DNA of 64,000 bases from Levilactobacillus lanxiensis (GTDB taxonomy: Bacteria > Bacillota > Bacilli > Lactobacillales > Lactobacillaceae): NCBI RefSeq assembly GCF_016861655.1, contig NZ_BOLN01000008.1, positions 62,001 to 126,000 of the forward strand, read 5' to 3'. A program made the translations under genes and the position numbers. Below, piece by piece: positions 241 through 63,660 of this stretch (its first letter is position 1; each line of letters opens with the position of its first letter). A model generated the notes under the pieces. That model saw only the letters and a list, made by a program, of their open reading frames with translations. It had not been told where the DNA came from and did not search any database.

Positions 241-417
241 CACCTCCGGACTGGTGAAAATGGGATTGGAACGCGGTGGGCGGACGTCTGAAGCCTGAGG
301 AGCGGTCTTCAGACTTACTTTGAGCTGCTAAAAACGCATCTCAAAGATACCAATTGTCTAAACGGCCAGCCGTTTAGACAATTCCCACGGCTGAACCCAT
401 TTGCACCAGCCCTGCGG
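241..417 (-). repeat. Family A structured repeat, copy A1
   Basis: Reverse-orientation copy in the rny-ymdB gap, downstream of the rny terminator. The outer arms CTGGTGAAAATGGG (near 251) and CCCATTTGCACCAG (near 397) pair. The inner hairpin at 352-383 has a 14 bp stem, TTGTCTAAACGG against CCGTTTAGACAA. A second hairpin has CTTTGAG/CTCAAAG, and a third carries the conserved GGTCTTCAGAC core. The edge is of the CCTCCGG type, as in A2. Remaining bases of this gap (113-240 and 418-506) show no gene. Confidence 0.85.
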
Positions 418-504
418 TTAACGGCCGCTTAGCCCCTCTGTTTTCAATTTTGTTTAGTTCTCCTATAAGCCAGCTAGTCAATCCCGCTTTCTTTCTACAA
501 AAAC

Positions 505-5378: not shown

Positions 5379-5556
5379 AGCCGCAGGGCTGGTGAAAATG
5401 GGCTCAGCCGTGGGAGTTACCTTAGCGGCAGAGCCGCTTAGATAACTGCTATCTTTGAGACGTGTTTTCCGGCTCAAAGTAAGTCCGGAGACCGCTTTTC
5501 AGGCTCCGGACGTGCGCCCACCGCGCCACGGCCCAGTTTTCACCAGCCCGGAGGCG
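5379..5556 (+). repeat. Family A structured repeat, copy A2
   Basis: Outer arms GGGCTGGTGAAAATGGGC (from 5386) and GCCCAGTTTTCACCAGCCC (to 5550) pair with one irregularity. Inside lie the hairpin CTTAGCGG/CCGCTTAG (about 5435-5455), a CTTTGAG/CTCAAAG hairpin and a TCCGGAG/CTCCGGA hairpin with the conserved GACCGC loop side. It ends 24 bp from the pgsA stop (minus strand), between that stop and the terminator at 5102. Confidence 0.85.
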
Positions 5557-9900: not shown

Positions 9901-10086
9901 GCCTTACCGGATGGGGAAAATAGGCCGGGACGCTGTGGGCGGACGCCCGAAGCCATAGTGCGGTCTTCGGACTTACTTTGCGCCTCTGTGGTGCGAGTCG
10001 CAAAGATACCAGTTTGCTAAGCGGTAAACCGCTAAGCAAACTCCCACGGCTGAGCCTATTTTACCCATCCTCACGGCTGACACTGG
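9901..10086 (-). repeat. Family A structured repeat, copy A3
   Basis: Reverse-orientation copy. The closing arms GGATGGGGAAAATAGGC (9909) and GCCTATTTTACCCATCC (to 10070) pair along 17 bases with one mismatch. The second stem is GCTGTGGG / CCCACGGC. The inner hairpins are GTTTGCTTAGCGG / CCGCTTAGCAAAC (near 10012-10041), CTTTGCG/CGCAAAG, and CCGAAG/CTTCGG around the conserved GGTCTTCGG. It lies 48 bp upstream of ymfF. No gene is seen in 10087-10350. Confidence 0.9.
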
Positions 10087-12746: not shown

Positions 12747-13006
12747 AAAAACGCCCTCCTAGGTCCAAAGACCTAAGAGGACGATCACATCGTGGTTCCA
12801 CCTCTGTTTGTTTCCGTATCACTACGAAAACCTCAGCGAGTTGCTAGCAACTCCAGCGATAACGGGCTACCCCGGACCTTCTTACTCATTTCAGAAAGCC
12901 AACTCACAGATGTGGTTCGAATCGTTAAGTCCGCCCGTTTCCATCATCGGGGCTTTCTGGAGAACCTTAACCGTTCTACTCTTCCGTTCAACGTTTTTCA
13001 TTCATT
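12747..13006 (-). promoter_or_regulatory. T-box leader of the amino acid transporter operon
   Basis: Complete T-box riboswitch on the minus strand. Stem I carries AGTA (loop E) and the apical GATGATGGAAAC element. The T-box is AGGTGGAACCACG (near 12791), followed by a terminator at 12747-12783. In the valS leader of this window the specifier follows GAAC (GAAC-GTA, Val). The same position here reads GAAC-CAC, His (12912-12914). The T-box variable base (TGGA) would pair with a U discriminator, which does not fit a C73 tRNA-His, so the amino acid is not certain. Confidence 0.85.
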
Positions 13007-13180: not shown

Positions 13181-13297
13181 AGCCGTGAGGGTAACGAAAA
13201 TGGCTTCAGCCGTGGGAGTTGGATTTCAGCTTCTAAGCTGAAATCCAACTGGCGACTTTGAAACGCGTTCCGAGCCATTTTCGTTACCCGGTAAGGC
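13181..13297 (+). repeat. Family A structured repeat, internally deleted copy A4
   Basis: Perfect closing arms GGGTAACGAAAATGGC and GCCATTTTCGTTACCC enclose the TCAGCCGTGGGAG strand and one hairpin, TTGGATTTCAGCTT / AAGCTGAAATCCAA (13220-13249). The element then breaks in the fourth arm (ACTTTGAAACGCGTTCC). The fifth arm and the second strand of stem 2 are missing, about 60-75 bp less than full copies. It ends 13 bp from the minD stop codon. Confidence 0.85.
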
Positions 13298-16285: not shown

Positions 16286-17290
16286 CTATTTTTTCTTCAT
16301 GACATCGATACTCTTTAATGATTCACCAGTACCAGCGGCCACACAATCTAATGGGTCGTTTGCAATGGAAACCGGCACCTTGGTTGCGTCGGCGATGACT
16401 TCTGAAAGGTTCTTCAGTAAGGCACCCCCACCAGTCAACACGATACCGTGATCAATCACATCGGCAGCGATTTCTGGTGACGTTTCTTCCAAGGTTTCCT
16501 TGATAGCCGTAATGACGTCTTGAACGGGTTCTTGGATGGCTTTGGCCACATCAACAGCGGAAACTTCCACTGCTTTAGGCAAACCAGTGACTAAATCGCG
16601 GCCCCGAATCGTGGCGCCGTCGATCTTGCTGGCTTCTTCCACGGAAGCGGAACCAATGTCCATCTTCAGCTTTTCAGCCGTCCGTTCACCAATCAACAGG
16701 TTGAAGTTACTCCGAACGTAAGTTGCAATCGCATCGTCCAACTTGTCACCGGCAACCCGGATTGAACGGCTGGACACGATCCCACCTAAGGAAATGGTGG
16801 CAACGTCGGTGGTCCCACCACCCATGTCAACGACCATGCTACCGGTTGGGTCCATAACGGGCAAACCGGCACCAATGGCAGCAGCAAATGGTTCTTCAAT
16901 TACGTAGGCATCGCGCGCACCGGCAACCCGGGTCGCGTCGATCACTGCCCGCTTTTCAACTTCAGTCACACCACTTGGTACACAAACCATGACATATGGC
17001 TTACCACTAGACTTACCAACCGTCTTTTCGATGAAGTATTTCATCATGGCAACAGTTGTATCGTAGTCGGCAATCACGCCGTCTTTCATGGGCCGAATGG
17101 CAACAATACTAGCCGGCGTCCGACCAATCATTGCGCGTGCGTCTTCACCAACGGACACAATTTCCCCAGACTTTGTGTTCTTGGCGACAACGGAAGGTTC
17201 GCGTAGAACGATACCCTTACCGTCAACGTAGACAATTGTATTGGCGGTACCAAGATCGATCCCAATATTTTTCGTTCCTAATCCGAACAC
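16286..17290 (-). CDS. mreB: Rod shape-determining protein MreB
   Basis: Actin-like ATPase whose membrane filaments guide lateral wall growth. The 334 residues open with [20 protein letters not shown], have the phosphate-2 loop [18 protein letters not shown] and end with the adenosine motif [11 protein letters not shown]. The start is GTG after GGGATGAAACACA. First gene of the mreBCD-minCD group. A second MreB-type gene (mbl-like) is at 45573-46577; this copy is assigned mreB because of its mreC/mreD neighbours. Confidence 0.97.
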
Positions 17291-19588: not shown

Positions 19589-19770
19589 GCCTTACCGGGT
19601 GGCAAAAATGGACCGTGACGCTGTGGGCGGACGCCCGAAGCCAAAGAGCGGTCTTCGGACTTGCTTTGAGCCTCCAAGTTCGAGTCTCAAAGACACCAAT
19701 TCTCTAAACGCCTACGCCGTTAAGAGAATTCCCACGGCTGAGTCCATTTTTGCCACCCTCACGGCTTACA
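19589..19770 (-). repeat. Family A structured repeat, copy A5
   Basis: Reverse-orientation copy. Closing arms GGGTGGCAAAAATGGAC and GTCCATTTTTGCCACCC are perfectly complementary over 17 bp. Stem 2 is GCTGTGGG/CCCACGGC. Inner hairpins: TTCTCTAAACG / CGTTAAGAGAA (near 19710-19731), CTTTGAG/CTCAAAG, and CCGAAG/CTTCGG with the GGTCTTCGG core. Upstream of folC. No gene is seen in 19771-19984. Confidence 0.9.
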
Positions 19771-19984
19771 CAGCAATTTATCCATTCACTGTTTTTTCGC
19801 CCCTTCCAGCTTTAAAAACTCACCTCTCACATCACAAATACACACGAAATGTTCGTCACATAAAATATAAACTCATGACTTTTAGTCAGCATCCGCGCTG
19901 GTTCGCCTGCAAAACACCTAGTCCCTTCACCAGACAACACGGTAAGTTAGTTCACCGTACTTAATCAATTTTACAGAAAACAAA

Positions 19985-20032
19985 AACCGGCACCAACTAC
20001 TCACGAAGAGTCGTTGATGCCGGAAATTTTAG
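19985..20032 (-). terminator. Intrinsic terminator downstream of valS and repeat A6
   Basis: Minus-strand CCGGCATCAACGACTC, loop, GAGTAGTTGGTGCCGG followed by TTTTTG. It lies about 280 bp beyond the valS stop, so the valS transcript would include repeat A6 before ending. Confidence 0.85.
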
Positions 20033-20114
20033 TGATTTAAGAACCGCTCTGAATACAAGAACCCCAGAACAGTCAGTCGATACCAGGAACAACCTAGATG
20101 GGCCTATGCCAGTG

Positions 20115-20290
20115 TCAGCCGTGAGGTCCGCAGAAATGGGCTCAGCCGGGGGATTTTCTAAGTGGTTTCCTTAGAAAATGGCGACTTTGAGACACTTTTT
20201 TGGTGGCTCAAAGCGAGTCTTAAGACCGCTCTTCGGCTTAAGACGTCCTGCCCCCAGCGTTCCGGCCCATTTCTGCGGACCGGTAAGGCG
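20115..20290 (+). repeat. Family A structured repeat, copy A6
   Basis: Best-preserved copy. The closing stem GGTCCGCAGAAATGGGC / GCCCATTTCTGCGGACC is perfect over 17 bp. Stem 2 uses GGGGG/CCCCC. Inner hairpins are ATTTTCTAAG / CTTAGAAAAT (20151-20181), CTTTGAG/CTCAAAG, and GTCTTAAGACC / GGCTTAAGAC (near 20216-20245). It ends 16 bp from the valS stop on the opposite strand. Confidence 0.9.
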
Positions 20291-20306
20291 ACCAGCAAAG
20301 ACCAAT

Positions 20307-22973
20307 CTAGATTTGGGCCTTGATGTCGGCGAGGCGTTGCTTGGTGGCGGCTAACTTTTTCTCGTTATCCGCTTGCTTTTCCCGTTCAGCGTTAACCACG
20401 TCTTCTGGCGCGTTAGCCACGAAACGTTCGTTGCCTAACTTCTTGGTTGCCCGGTCAACTTCGGCCGTGTACTTGGCAACTTCCTTGTCCAGGCGCTTAG
20501 CTTCGTCGTTCAGGTCGACCAATTCGGCCAGTGGGACAGAAACTTCGGCACCCGAGATTACGGAGGTCATGGCCAGCTTTGGTGCGGTCACGTCAGCGCC
20601 CATTTCAAAGCCCTTTGGGTGAACGAACCGGTCAATGTAGTCACGGTTGTTTTCAAAGACACTTTGTAATTGGGTATCGCTGGTCTTGATCTGCAAGTCG
20701 ATTGGCGTGGACATTGGCGCGTTGGCTTCGGCCCGGATGTTCCGGACAGCCTTGATCAAGTCGATCAGGCTCGTCATGTCGTTTTCTGCCGTGGCGTTGT
20801 CAAATTCTGGGTGGTCGACTGGGTAAGCCGCCGTGACCAGGGATTGACCGTCATGTGGCATGGCTTGCCAGATGGCTTCCGTCACGAATGGCATGATTGG
20901 TTGCAGCAGACGTAAGGTTTGGTCTAAGACGTAAGCCAGCATGTCTTGCTTGTTGGCCTTGGCAGCGTCATCGTCGCCGGTCAGGACTTCCTTACTCATT
21001 TCGATATACCAGTCACAGAAGTCGTTCCAGATGAAGTTGTAGAGTGAACGCCCAGCTTCACCGAATTCAAACTTGTCGAACATTTCCGTAACGTGCTTAA
21101 CCGTATCGTTCAAGCGGCTTAAGATCCACTTGTCGGTCAGGTCCCACTTGTCAGCGGCTGGCACAACGGGCTTGGTGTTCTCGCCCAAGTTCATGATCAC
21201 AAATCGGCTGGCGTTCCAGATCTTGTTGATAAAGTTCCAGGCGGCGTCCATCTTGTCGTAACTGAACCGGACATCTTGGCCGGCCGTTGAACCGGTAGAC
21301 AGGAACCACCGCAGGGCATCGGCACCGTACTTGTCGATAACGTCCATTGGATCGATCCCGTTACCCAGGGACTTACTCATCTTGCGACCGTCTTCGGCCC
21401 GAATCAACCCGTGTAAGAGCACGTGCTTGAACGGCTTCTTACCGGTAAATTCAAGACTTTGGAAGATCATCCGGGAAACCCAGAAGAAGATGATGTCGTA
21501 ACCGGTCACCAAGGTGTCGGTTGGGAAGTAGCGTTTGAAATCAGCGCTGTCTTCGTTTGGCCAACCCATCGTGGAGAATGGCCACAGGGCACTGGAGAAC
21601 CAGGTATCTAAGACGTCGGGGTCTTGTTCCCAGTTTTCAATATCCTTAGGGGCTTCTTCATCAACGTAGACTTCACCAGTCTTCTTGTTGTACCAGGCTG
21701 GAATCCGGTGACCCCACCAGAGTTGACGGGAGATAACCCAGTCGTGGACGTTTTCCATCCATTGGGTGAAGGTGTGTTCGAACCGTTCTGGCACGAAATC
21801 AACCGCGTTGTCGCCCTCTTGGTTCTTGATAGCGGCTTCGGCAAGTGGCTTCATCTTCACGAACCATTGGGTAGACAGCCGGGCTTCGACTTGAACCCCA
21901 GTCCGTTCTGAATGCCCAACGGAATGGACGATTGGGTCAATTTTGATCATTAAGCCTTGGTCATCTAAGTCCGCAACCATGGCCTTACGAGCGTCGAAAC
22001 GGTCCATCCCAGCGTACTTGCCGGCGCGGTCGTTCATCGAAGCATCTTCGTTCATGGTGTTGATCCGTTCGAGGTTGTGACGGTTACCCACTAAGAAGTC
22101 ATTTGGATCATGAGCTGGGGTAATCTTAACCATCCCAGTCCCAAAGTTGATATCAACGTATTGGTCAGCGATGATGGGAATTTCACGGTTAGCTAATGGC
22201 AAGATAACCTTCTTGCCCACTAAGTCCTTGTACCGGTCGTCGTCGGGGTTAACGGCAACGGCGGTATCGCCCATCATGGTTTCAGGACGGGTCGTAGCAA
22301 TTTCAATGTAATGCTTGCCGTTAAACGTGTAGTCGGGGTCGGCAAATGGGTATTTCACGTGGTAGAACGCACCCTTGTCATCTTGATGAATCACTTCGAT
22401 ATCAGATAACGCAGTCCGGGCTTGGGGATCCCAGTTGATGATGTATTCGCCCCGGTAGATCAGGCCCTTCTTGTAGAGAGTAACGAAGACCTTCTTAACG
22501 GCGTCAGATAAGCCATCATCCAAGGTAAACCGTTCACGGGAGTAGTCCATGGACAGCCCCATCTTGGCCCATTGCTTGTGGATGGTTGCGGCGTATTCGT
22601 CCTTCCATTCCCAAACCTTGTCGACAAATTTTTCCCGACCTAAGTCGTAACGGGTAATGCCTTGTTCACGTAAGCGGGCTTCCACCTTGGCTTGCGTGGC
22701 GATACCGGCATGGTCCATCCCCGGAATCCAGAGTGTATCAAAACCCTGCATCCGCTTTTGCCGAATGATCATGTCTTGTAAAGTCGTGTCCCAGGCGTGG
22801 CCTAAATGCAGCTTCCCGGTAACATTTGGTGGCGGTAAAACAATGGAATAAGGCGTGGCTTTCTTATCACCACTGGGTTTGAAAACATCTTCATCAAGCC
22901 AAGTTTGGTACCGACCCGCTTCAACGGCGGTTGGATCATACTTGGTTGGCATATCAATTTGCTTGTCAGCCAT
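20307..22973 (-). CDS. valS: Valyl-tRNA synthetase
   Basis: Class I aminoacyl-tRNA synthetase charging tRNA-Val and editing mischarged Thr. The 888-residue length is typical. HIGH motif [12 protein letters not shown] near 46-57, KMSKS motif [14 protein letters not shown] near 530, the editing insert ([12 protein letters not shown]) between them, and the C-terminal coiled coil ([19 protein letters not shown] onward). Preceded by a Val T-box leader, so expression rises when tRNA-Val is uncharged. Confidence 0.98.
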
Positions 22974-23019: not shown

Positions 23020-23253
23020 AAAAAAATCTCCGTCCTAAAAAATTAGGACGAAGATTCTTCGCGGTACCACCTAAATTGGGCGTTTATGCCCCACTTAACT
23101 TCTTTGTTAACGGAGAGTGCTCCGGTCCGGGCTTACTGTTGGTTCAGCCCGGCAGCTCGCAAGCTACGTTCACGTTTCGTCATCCACCGGTTTCCAGCAA
23201 TTCCGGCTCTCTACGAGAATGTTCTAACGCTACTGACTTGTTCAACGCTACTT
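23020..23253 (-). promoter_or_regulatory. T-box leader of valS
   Basis: Minus-strand leader with stem I (AGTAGCG, GAGAGCCGG, TGCTGGAAACCGGTGGA). The specifier GTA (Val) follows GAAC (23165-23167), and the T-box is AGGTGGTACCGCG (23060-23072). A terminator stem GAATCTTCGTCCTAA / TTAGGACGGAGATT with seven T lies at 23020-23055. The TGGT variable base pairs with A73, as expected for tRNA-Val. Confidence 0.95.
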
Positions 23254-23259
23254 TCACAT

Positions 23260-34611: not shown

Positions 34612-34846
34612 CCAGGTCAGGTGCTGGGGTCCGTTCCACCTGCGGCTGTCAGCCACTCCGCACCTGTGGGGACCGCCTGCGACCTGAGGGGCGGTCCTCC
34701 GGCTTGCCTTTGAGTCACAAGGTTCATGTGTCTCAAAGATCATCCCGTGCTGTAAGCCGGCTCAAAAAACGCCGACTAACACCAACGACACAGGCAGCTG
34801 CGTAACTGACCTCCTCCGGTTACACGGGCCCCAGCACCTGACCAGA
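34612..34846 (-). repeat. Family B structured repeat, divergent copy B1
   Basis: Outer arms GGTCAGGTGCTGGGG (34615-34629) and CCCCAGCACCTGACC (34829-34843) are perfectly complementary. Stem 2 is CCTGTG/CACAGG. Inner hairpins: AGCCGGC / GCCGACT, CTTTGAG(TCACA)/(TGTG)TCTCAAAG, and a GGTC-type arm with the GGGCGGTC core. The outer arms differ entirely from other B copies, yet pair. No gene is seen between 34847 and 35073. Confidence 0.75.
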
Positions 34847-35073: not shown

Positions 35074-35250
35074 TCAGCCGTGAGGTCGGCGAAAATGTGC
35101 TCAGCCGTGGGATTCTTCGAGTGAATTTCTCGAAGAATGGCGTCTTTGAAACACGTGTTTTTCGTGGTTCAAAGCGAGCTTCAAGACCGCTCTTTGGCTT
35201 GGAGCGTCCTTCCCCAGCGTTCCGGTACATTTTCGCCGACCGGTAAGGCG
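35074..35250 (+). repeat. Family A structured repeat, copy A7
   Basis: Closing arms GGTCGGCGAAAATGT and ACATTTTCGCCGACC are perfectly complementary. Inner hairpins: ATTCTTCGAG / CTCGAAGAAT (35114-35140), CTTTGAA / TTCAAAG, and CTTCAAGACC / GGCTTGGAG with the conserved GACCGCTCTTTGGCTT core. Edge of the CCGGTAAGGC type. About 100 bp upstream of the small membrane protein gene. Confidence 0.88.
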
Positions 35251-42501: not shown

Positions 42502-42690
42502 TCCCGACGGCGGGTCCAAGCAGCCCTGCTGTGGGGCACGGTTCCAGCCTGAGGAACGGTCTTCCACCTCGCCTGGAAGCCTAGAAACCCACTAGTCTCC
42601 CAGGTCGTCCCGTGCTCTAAACTGAGAAATTCACTCAGTTAAGACCACCGACACAGCTGGTCAACTTGACCCGCCTCTGGTCACTCACAC
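42502..42690 (-). repeat. Family B structured repeat, copy B2
   Basis: Reverse-orientation copy. Closing arms GGCGGGTCCAAG and CTTGACCCGCC pair with one bulge. Stem 2 is GCTGTGG/CGACACAGC. Inner hairpins: AACTGAG/CTCAGTT (near 42628-42650), a CCTGGAAGCC / CTCCCAGG arm, and the GGTTCCAGCC / GGTCTTCC arm. About 90 bp upstream of the SPFH gene. Confidence 0.85.
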
Positions 42691-43042: not shown

Positions 43043-43308
43043 CAGCCGCAGGGATGGTGAAAATTAGCCCGCTGAGCCAGTGTCAGTGACCAGAGGCGGA
43101 TCAAGCCAGACAGCTGTGTCGATGGTCTTAGCTGAGCGGCTTTCTCAGCTTAGAGCATAGGACGACCTTTGAGACCGCCTTGTGGCTCAAAGTCGAGGTG
43201 GAAGCCCGCCTCTCAGGCTGGAACCGCCCCCACAGCAGGGTGGCTTGAATCCGCCGCCGGGAACGACCAGCCACAGCGCCACGGCCCATTTTCACCATCC
43301 CGGAGGCG
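43043..43308 (+). repeat. Composite repeat B3: family B core inside family A-type outer arms
   Basis: Outer edges GGGATGGTGAAAAT (43051) and ATTTTCACCATCCC (to 43300) are the A-type closing stem, ending CCGGAGGCG. Nested inside is a whole B element: arms GGCGGATCAAGCCA / TGGCTTGAATCCGCC, stem 2 GCTGTG/CACAGC, hairpin AGCTGAG/CTCAGCT, hairpin CGACCTTTGAG / CTCAAAGTCG, and an AGCC/GGCT arm. Located just downstream of the gcvH-like gene and its terminator. Confidence 0.85.
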
Positions 43309-45572: not shown

Positions 45573-46577
45573 TTAGTTATTTTCTTTAGCCGTCTTGGTG
45601 TCCATGTGTTCCAGGAGCACACCAGCACCCTTGGCCACGTTATCCAGTGGGTCTTCTGAAATGATGACGGGGACCGTCAATCGTTCGGAGAAGAGCTTGT
45701 CGATGCCGTCTAACAAGGCACCCCCACCAGTCAACATGATACCGCGGTCGATAATGTCAGCAGCCAATTCTGGGGGTGTCGTTTCCAACACGGCCATTGC
45801 AGCGGACACGATTTGTTCGATTGAATCATGAATGGCAATTTCCACTTCGGCGGCGTTGATGGTCGTCGTGGTTGGCATCCCACTCACGGAGTCCCGGCCA
45901 CGAACTTCCATGGTCTTTTCTTCGTTGCCTGGTTCTGGATAAGCCGTCCCAATCTTGATCTTAATGGTTTCAGCGGTCCGTTCCCCAATGATCAGGTTGT
46001 GGTTATGCTTCAGGTAGTTCACGATTTCCGTGTTCATGCGGTCACCAGCGACACGAATGGAGCGGCTAGCGACGATGTCACCCAAGGAAAGGATGGCAAT
46101 ATCACTAGTCCCACCACCCATGTCGATCACCATGTTACCGCTAGGCTTGAAGATATCCATGCCGGCACCCAAGGCCGCCACTTTAGGTTCTTCTTCGAAG
46201 TAAACCTTGGCACCACCGGATTTTTCGGCAGCCTGAATGATGGCCTTCCGTTCAATCTCGGTAATGTTGGTTGGGGCACAGATCATGATGTTTGGCTTGG
46301 ATAAGAAGCCCTTAACACTTAATTTATTGATGAAATAGGAGAGCATGGCTTCGGTAATGTCGAAATCAGAAATGACCCCATCCTTCAACGGACGAATCGC
46401 CCGGATATTACCAGGTGTCCGACCCACCATCCGGTAGGCTTCGGAGCCCACTGCTAATACCTTGTCAGTCTTCGTGTCGATTGCTACGACTGATGGTTCA
46501 TTTAATACGATTCCTTTGCCGACCACGTAGATTAAAACGTTCGCCGTACCTAGGTCAATGCCAATGTCTTTCGCCAT
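45573..46577 (-). CDS. mbl: MreB-like actin homologue (Mbl type)
   Basis: Second MreB paralogue in the window, 334 residues. It opens with [27 protein letters not shown], has VIDMGGGTSDIAILSLGD and [18 protein letters not shown]. Bacillus Mbl also lies near murA and the atp operon, so mbl is preferred over a second mreB. It organises side-wall synthesis. First gene of a group with yidD, DUF2969 and then rodA. Confidence 0.93.
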   Translation of the reverse strand: MAKDIGIDLGTANVLIYVVGKGIVLNEPSVVAIDTKTDKVLAVGSEAYRMVGRTPGNIRAIRPLKDGVISDFDITEAMLSYFINKLSVKGFLSKPNIMICAPTNITEIERKAIIQAAEKSGGAKVYFEEEPKVAALGAGMDIFKPSGNMVIDMGGGTSDIAILSLGDIVASRSIRVAGDRMNTEIVNYLKHNHNLIIGERTAETIKIKIGTAYPEPGNEEKTMEVRGRDSVSGMPTTTTINAAEVEIAIHDSIEQIVSAAMAVLETTPPELAADIIDRGIMLTGGGALLDGIDKLFSERLTVPVIISEDPLDNVAKGAGVLLEHMDTKTAKENN

Positions 46578-49092: not shown

Positions 49093-49290
49093 TGTGAGCG
49101 ACCAGAGGCGGCTCAAGGTGCTCAGCTGTGTCGATGGCATTAGCTGAGGTTCCTCACTCAGCTTAGGGCATGGGACGACCTGGGAGACTCGCGCCCTTCG
49201 CGAGGTTTCCAGGCGAGGTGGAAGACCGCCCCTCAGGCTGGAACCGTGCCCCACAGCAGAGCACCTTGAAGCTGCCGCCGGGAGCGCACC
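49093..49290 (+). repeat. Family B structured repeat, copy B4
   Basis: Closing arms GGCGGC-TCAAGGTGCTC and GAGCACCTTGA-AGCTGCCGCC pair with one bulge. Stem 2 is GCTGTG/CACAGC. Inner hairpins: AGCTGAG / CTCAGCT (49138-49168), CGACCTGGGAGACTCGC / GCGAGGTTTCCAGGCG, and GTGGAAGACC / GGCTGGAAC with the GACCGC core. It lies directly beyond the atp operon terminator. Confidence 0.88.
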
Positions 49291-62789: not shown

Positions 62790-63017
62790 GCGCCTCCGGG
62801 ATGGTTTACTTCGGTGATTCCGTCCCGTTCCCGGCGGCGGATTCAAAGCGCCCTGCTGTGGGGACCGCTTCCAGCCTGAGAAGCGGTCTTCCAGCTCGAC
62901 TTTGAGCCCCAAGACCGGTCTCAAAGATCGTCCCGTGGTCTAGGTTGGGAAAGAACCCCAACCAAGACCACCGACACAGCTGTCCACTTTGATCCGCCTC
63001 TGGTCACTAACACTGAC
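62790..63017 (-). repeat. Family B structured repeat, copy B5, with relic of an A-type edge
   Basis: Core 62828-63017: arms GGCGGATTCAAAG and CTTTGATCCGCC, stem 2 GCTGTGG/CGACACAGC, hairpin GGTTGGG/CCCAACC (62943-62964), CTTTGAG/CTCAAAG and the GGTCTTCC arm. Bases 62790-62804 (GCGCCTCCGGGATGG) match the outer A-type edge of B3, but the partner edge is missing. Confidence 0.83.
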
Positions 63018-63149: not shown

Positions 63150-63370
63150 CCACCAACTTAGTGGTCGACCCGCAATCTAGAGCCGGAGGAAGCCAGGGCG
63201 GAGACGGCTGTGTCGATTCTGTTAGTCGGCGTTTCTTGCCGGCCTACAGAATGGGACAACCTTTGAGACCTGCGCTTCTCAGCAGGGCTTAAAGGTGAGG
63301 TGGGAGCCCGCCCTTCGGCGGAAACCGGCCCCACAGCAGGCGCAACCCTGGAAGCCGCAGGCGGCAAATC
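63150..63370 (+). repeat. Family B-like structured repeat, copy B6 (tandem with B7)
   Basis: Begins CACCAACTTAGTGGTCGA and carries AGCCGGAGGAAGCCAGG. Stem 2 is GCTGTG/CACAGC, an inner hairpin is GTCGGC/GCCGGC, and CCTTTGAG/CTTAAAGG and GGAGCCC/GGCGG arms are present. The right side is CCCTGGAAGCCGCAGGCGG. The two edges pair only in part (CCAGG/CCTGG). Confidence 0.78.
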
Positions 63371-63437: not shown

Positions 63438-63660
63438 ACCAACTTAGTGGTCGATCCGCAACCTAGAGCCGGAGGAAGCCAGGACGGAGACGGCTGTGTC
63501 GGTGGCGTTAGACCGAGTGGGCTTCTCGGCCTTACACCACGGGACGACTTTGGAAACTCGCGACCCTCAGCGAGGTTTCAAAGCGAGGTGGAGGACCGCT
63601 CCTCAGACCGGAGCCGTGCCCCACAGCAGGCGTAGCCCTGGAAGCCGCAGGCGGCAAATC
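63438..63660 (+). repeat. Family B-like structured repeat, copy B7 (tandem with B6)
   Basis: Direct repeat of B6 with a period of 286 bp; same edges (AGCCGGAGGAAGCCAGG, CCCTGGAAGCCGCAGGCGG). The internal hairpin has changed together on both arms: CCGAG/CTCGG (B7) in place of GTCGGC/GCCGGC (B6). The GACCGCTCCTCAG core is kept. It lies about 110 bp upstream of the murT promoter. Confidence 0.8.

Follow-up and report, generated by a model that had tools for sequence, protein, structure and literature searches.

Cloverleaf-topped hairpin repeats of Lactobacillaceae keep their fold while their sequence changes and are probably MITE-like DNA elements

A sequence-only reading of Levilactobacillus lanxiensis DNA reported seven copies of a roughly 180-bp intergenic repeat in the window (the whole stretch of 64,000 nucleotides analysed here), with closing arms that change from copy to copy and still pair, and the question raised by such a locus is what kind of element it is and whether its fold is kept as RNA or as DNA. 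Using a covariance model of 36 copies, six of them from the window's seven (the short copy at 13182 was left out of the model), cmsearch placed all seven. The copy at the locus itself, an A copy, occupies 20118..20288 (+; 170.7 bits), and its 3' end faces valS, 24 bp (profile end) from the stop codon of that gene. The other A copies lie at 242..418 (−; 170.9 bits), 5380..5555 (+; 170.3 bits), 9902..10077 (−; 186.1 bits), 19590..19765 (−; 186.4 bits; head to head with the 20118 copy) and 35077..35248 (+; 160.9 bits), and the short copy at 13182..13296 (+; 67.9 bits) consists, over about 115 bp, of the closing stem and one hairpin.

The earlier observation was right and understated. Two features had escaped it. 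Beyond the closing stem runs an extra inverted-repeat layer with the own-family consensus GGGTTAAAC...GTTTAACCC; around the 20118 copy we infer its limits to be approximately 20100..20320 (+), and with this layer the whole element would measure about 216 bp in consensus. The window also contains a related B core (about 175-185 nt; the A core measures about 175 nt) and A/B composites, B cores surrounded by an outer stem of the A-like type. These comprise a B-like related copy at 34631..34828 (−; 33.1 bits), head to head with the 35077 copy; B-core copies at 42502..42682 (−; 38.5 bits), 49098..49285 (+; 37.9 bits) and 62829..63005 (−; 51.5 bits); an A/B composite at 43045..43307 (+; 39.8 bits), head to head with the 42502 copy; a related copy at 63189..63355 (+; 27.6 bits); and a weaker related copy at 63492..63628 (+), which scored 54.0 bits with a profile HMM and was absent from the cmsearch list. 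Two MreB/Mbl paralogues are encoded in the window at 16289-17290(−) and 45576-46577(−), and no tRNA or tmRNA gene was found in it.

We found the fold to be well supported. RNAalifold recovered the described plan, in which the closing stem is long, the second stem short and the number of hairpins three, with 59 consensus pairs, 35 of which carried at least one compensated double change, and positions 20100-20300 of the window folded at −99 kcal/mol (z −7.67), with none of 200 shuffles as low. Arms vary yet stay paired: the share of pair cells that were paired was 97.4% (shuffles 83.1%), double-change cells numbered 323 (shuffles 79.4) and the covariation score was 0.451 (shuffles 0.159). None of 500 shuffles matched any of the five covariation measures, an outcome that kinship among the copies can also produce; when the structure was slid along the alignment as a control, paired cells dropped to 34-49%. 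Five loci from four other genera, inspected singly, had closing stems very different in sequence and two or three inner hairpins, and they folded as well. A covarying structure of the kind expected of cis-regulatory or small RNAs is present, and this trait is not specific to RNA.

The family proved to be large. Iterated profile searches gave 103 matches in 464 kb of the window's own genome (one copy appears as two pieces), and 110 copies once a second profile was added; another 400 kb held 114 more, giving 224 copies of A core, B core and A/B composites in 864 kb, of which the A model alone recovered 76 at E up to 1e-20. Extrapolated to the whole genome, these counts suggest a total that may come close to 800, all kinds included. 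In the first sample the elements made up about 4% of the DNA (19,278 of 464,000 bp). With rough E-values throughout, and with up to 78 places per genome scored within the genus, matches occurred in 33 of the 35 genomes of the genus (E up to 1e-6; G013 and G025 were the only two without and might serve as negative controls), in 35 of 151 genomes and 10 of 40 genera of Lactobacillaceae at E up to 1e-3, and in 3 of 148 genomes of the order at E up to 1e-5, all three of them Lactobacillaceae. The distribution in Lactobacillaceae is family-wide but uneven.

Despite this abundance and spread, the literature searched on known repeat elements yielded no description of such a Lactobacillus element, and the statement that no named element has this plan stands as far as Rfam, plasmid and phage records and the literature were searched. 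The comparison with Rfam that had been proposed alongside that statement found no fitting family at gathering or permissive thresholds. The window's two matches at gathering score were T-boxes lying away from the repeats, namely T-box leaders at 23041-23254(−), just upstream of valS (123.8 bits), and at 12774-13000(−) (103.6 bits). Ocean-VII was rejected as a candidate at 43077-43111(+), the start of the B core in the composite copy, where it reached 20.7 bits as against a gathering score of 53.5. Plasmid and phage records returned no copy with A and B queries of the own species (B on plasmids only), a result that may miss distant copies because of the origin of the queries; the G026 unit described below matched nothing in plasmid records. 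Among the papers, PMC12306157 does not contain the word 'Lactobacill', and those Lactobacillales motifs named in the relevant part of PMC2864571 that are in Rfam were covered by the Rfam comparison.

The copies are intergenic. Gene calls came from a simple script based on codon usage, and their borders are therefore approximate. Overlap of more than 60 bp with a predicted gene was seen in 0 of 110 copies in the 464-kb sample and 3 of 114 in the other 400 kb, or 3 of 224 in all. The 3' end was the one closer to the gene: in the two samples its median distance was 37 and 47.5 bp to stop codons and 104 and 95 bp to start codons, and for the 5' end the medians ranged from 346.5 to 488.5 bp. Neighbours within one gap were head to head in 20 + 25 cases (first and second sample), in the same direction in 10 + 12 and tail to tail in 0 + 0, so that the 5' ends faced each other in 45 of 45 opposed pairs. 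This polarity may reflect insertion preference or selection. In 21 head-to-head spacers, shared sequence was limited to short stretches of 18-37 bp at copy ends, and terminator-like hairpins, read by eye and uncounted, were present in several; the idea that a head-to-head pair is one mobile unit in the window's species was for these reasons not supported. One such hairpin with a T run (minus-strand sequence CCGGCATCAACGACTC...GAGTAGTTGGTGCCGGTTTTTG, read by eye) lies at 19980..20025(−) in the spacer that separates the 19590 copy from the 20118 copy, on the far side of the element as seen from valS.

For 50 stop-facing copies, scanning 900 bp placed an intrinsic terminator beyond the element in 36, before it in 6 and inside it in 6, with none in 9 (the categories overlap). 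At control stop codons without a copy, a terminator occurred within 150 bp in 117 of 285 cases, with a median distance of 16 bp to the first. From the positions of terminators relative to copies, those near stop codons are probably mostly located in 3' UTRs, in antisense orientation, and those near start codons may lie in 5' UTRs, in sense orientation.

We compared orthologous sites with L. wangkuiensis (G030), which shares mostly 91-96% identity with the window's genome over longer collinear blocks and as little as 80% over lower ones, and with genome G017. Differences amounted to 0.110 in elements (a figure that includes misaligned A/B swaps), 0.152 in their 30-bp borders, 0.094 in other intergenic DNA and 0.162 at third codon positions; to judge from these values, the copies diverge near-neutrally. 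Site differences inspected among the three genomes consisted of internal deletions, duplications, A/B swaps and other sequence, and no clean empty site was recognised among them by eye. A stem-loop of 105 bp at window position 13182 is missing from L. wangkuiensis, and some orthologous sites carry A in one species and an A/B composite in the other, as does the site of the 5380 copy, which is a composite in L. wangkuiensis.

The fold was kept during this divergence even within single orthologous copies. We located 45 ortholog site pairs, dropped 22 for a length difference above 30 or an identity below 0.8, and analysed 23, in which change amounted to 0.049 at paired and 0.086 at unpaired bases. 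Both sides had changed in 29 base pairs, compared with 3.6 expected if the sides were independent, and 25 of the 29 still pair. Single changes (n = 89) left 36 G-U, 23 A-C and 30 other combinations, 53 of the 89 thus mismatching. Kept doubles were clustered, 7 having a close neighbour as against a mean of 2.0 and a maximum of 8 in 1000 shuffles; the clustered ones came mainly from two copies and the rest were scattered. In one own copy, C1:71798-71970, both closing-stem arms differ en bloc from those in G017, with core and flanks kept. Doubles that restore pairing could be explained by arm-to-arm copying or by compensatory selection.

A sister genome, G026, offered a view of these modules within a larger unit. 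It carries an insertion of 633 bp that includes both an A-like and a B-like module and is missing at that site from G031 and G004, a filled and empty site at one locus whose border is not clean because these species are only 84-91% alike. The left flank of the insertion matched at least 40 places in G026, many starting at the identical point, and the 20 places that were compared have a common left end. The common unit measures about 640 bp, is often internally deleted and bears ACTGAAGGTTGAAA inverted repeats at its ends; with up to 1 mismatch this sequence had 80 matches, and the reversed pattern had 0. Both ends were found at up to 4 mismatches in 15 of 21 units, several right ends being doubtful. 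Direct repeats (6-9 bp) were detected in 6 of these 15 by a loose test and in 4 by a strict one that found none among 210 crossed pairs. The T run of a terminator starts 8-16 bp outside the left end of 7 of the 21 units, as against 0 of 21 for a control stretch. Flanking and middle parts of the unit match G004 too and have no match in the sample of the window's genome, so the link between the G026 unit and the window's copies rests on the cloverleaf modules. Inspection by eye revealed no partner transposase at the 80 ACTGAAGGTTGAAA end matches and no inverted pair of such ends 0.8-3 kb apart.

The window's own A copies share part of these traits. They are short, non-coding and intergenic in many copies, and have terminal inverted repeats, with arms that vary between copies; ends like GGGTTAAAC and GTTTAACCC (up to 3 and 4 mismatches) were found in 38 of 47 A copies. 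A high direct-repeat score occurred in 0 of these 38, and at pairing-defined borders (n = 79, A and B) repeats of 3-4 bp were no commoner than in crossed pairs. Inverted complementarity beyond the ends of own copies exceeded that of crossed pairs (z 6.5). Y1_Tnp, the one transposase searched by family, was not associated with the A copies. The sequence-only reading had named a match to a known MITE or insertion sequence as counting against it; no known one was matched, and the objection does hold in so far as the modules of G026 (with parts in G004) sit within an inverted-repeat-bounded unit.

Could the fold instead be kept because the copies act as RNA? They would then be transcribed in UTRs and affect mRNA stability or expression in cis, as is reported of ERIC in Yersinia, with RNA selection keeping the stems. 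The strong covariation, the position of 36 of the 50 stop-facing copies, with the stop codon on one side and the terminator on the other, and the lower rate of change at paired than at unpaired bases in orthologous copies all favour this, as does the wobble count over all pairs on the plus strand, where G-U outnumbered A-C by 53:20 (A1) and 102:34 (the model-fitted set A2); a structure predicted on the minus strand gave 61:42 in plus-strand terms. Among the firmly paired columns, however, the excess vanished in A1 (24:19, 20:18 and 3:9 at 85, 90 and 95%), although A2 retained 61:30, 50:27 and 19:15 at the same levels. An RNA role would put opposite strands of the element into 5' and 3' UTRs, yet start- and stop-facing copies did not differ significantly (53:12 vs 48:22; pooled p 0.11; p 0.064 in the first sample, the 36-copy set, and p 1.0 in the new sample alone), and a moderate plus-strand preference, untied to which strand the adjacent gene's mRNA represents, is possible. 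Single mismatches are common, and the copies diverge about as much as other intergenic DNA does. Of the earlier claim that the fold is kept, as RNA or as a DNA cruciform, conservation of the fold was borne out; an argument from covariation to RNA does not follow, since the wobble excess is lost in firm A1 columns and the start/stop contrast is not significant, and since common single mismatches with doubles that mostly restore pairing are likewise produced by arm copying. Altogether, we regard a functional RNA as rather unlikely.

The polarity lends itself to another account, in which the host uses the copies as one-way boundaries, kept at gene borders to stop or insulate transcription in one direction, and their orientation is thereby fixed. 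The excess of head-to-head over tail-to-tail neighbours (45 to 0) and the approach of the 3' end to starts and stops alike fit this. Most stop-facing copies (36 of 50) have, however, an ordinary intrinsic terminator on their far side, so that the copy need not terminate; the element itself has, by eye, no obvious T run after its stem, and copies vary between sister species and decay by deletion, so that such a boundary seems quite improbable to us. We give hardly any credence to a single-strand hairpin element moved by a Y1 transposase (IS200/IS605 or RAYT) in the manner of REPINs. It would agree with the keeping of fold rather than sequence and with the lack of direct repeats at the window's own copies, but Y1_Tnp, present in 23 of 35 genus genomes, is absent from the copy-rich L. 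wangkuiensis, G013 and G025 have it yet contain no element matches, and inverted-repeat ends as well as direct repeats are seen in the G026 unit.

The reading that we favour as probable is that the copies form a large family of small, non-coding, non-autonomous, MITE-like DNA elements of Lactobacillaceae, whose DNA can form a long hairpin topped by a cloverleaf (A core) or by a related B core. Copy number, intergenic placement, the uneven spread through the family, lineage differences, A/B swaps, deletions, near-neutral divergence, the joint change of arms and the G026 unit speak for mobile elements; against them stand the lack of direct repeats at own A copies, the finding of no transposase with matching ends, of no clean empty site between own, L. 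wangkuiensis and G017 and of no copy in the plasmid and phage records searched, and also the strict polarity (45 to 0), which simple insertion does not explain. The simplest account is that modules occur singly in the window's lineage and are paired within an inverted-repeat unit in G026. A putative, perhaps lost, transposase would have moved such units or single cloverleaves, and copies would persist where coding sequence was spared and terminators usually stayed intact, that is, mostly in UTRs. The arms would stay complementary through copying of arm from arm by template switching, through the spread of only those copies that fold well, or through both.

A bolder version, put forward tentatively and judged unlikely, is a family-wide DNA element that inherits shape rather than sequence, in which arms are rewritten arm onto arm, covariation arises without RNA selection, and polarity is absolute, making the element a one-way boundary between a gene and its promoter or terminator region. 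The elements would allow two questions to be put to the test: by what means small hairpin elements that encode no enzyme themselves can spread, and how frequently arm-to-arm copying of DNA lies behind covariation that is read as RNA function.

Known stem-loop families, among them ERIC, YPAL and RUP, are described in parts of PMC2229807 and PMC2267715, and the likenesses drawn here are limited to those parts. ERIC (IRU, RU-1; 127 bp, enterobacteria) is likewise small, intergenic, a long imperfect palindrome found in transcribed regions, and without a protein of its own. It is described as a single long stem-loop with a TA motif and target duplications, whereas the window's repeats have a three-hairpin cloverleaf, another sequence, no duplication at own copies, far more copies and a fixed polarity. 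YPAL (RU-2; 168 bp, Yersinia and Erwinia) is of similar size, palindromic and not A+T-rich, and is said to target sites at or next to dyad symmetry (PMC2229807), which recalls the flanks here that are more complementary beyond the ends than crossed pairs; unlike the present copies it makes target duplications of 3-26 bp, and the comparison covers size, palindromic form, base composition and target sites. RUP (107 bp, Streptococcus pneumoniae) resembles them as a non-autonomous intergenic Firmicute repeat with inverted-repeat ends but is tied to IS630-Spn1 and TA targets (PMC2229807), and no partner insertion sequence was found here. REP and REPIN elements with RAYT also occur, in the passages cited, as hundreds of palindromic extragenic copies (PMC2817692, PMC3116915). 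REP elements are only 20-40 bp long (PMC3733652) and the Y1 transposase is unassociated with the window's repeats; this candidate was rejected for want of co-occurrence. Template switching between inverted-repeat arms, in which arm is copied from arm and clustered changes keep complementarity, is a known mutational process in the part of PMC8604942 drawn upon, and its role in the cloverleaf family is our proposal.

Two side observations follow. At G001 C9:57370-57690 and 108330-108950, inserted element DNA has the same flank of about 30-40 bp to its left and right, an arrangement resembling a tandem duplication at a palindrome. A separate family of palindromic repeats, GGCGAGCATTAA...TTAAGCGGAACTGG...GCACGTTTCAG, was recognised by eye at G000:C1:84330-84413, at G001 C9:57420-57632 and at L162 (G026), and in G026 it occurs once inside an A-like cloverleaf.
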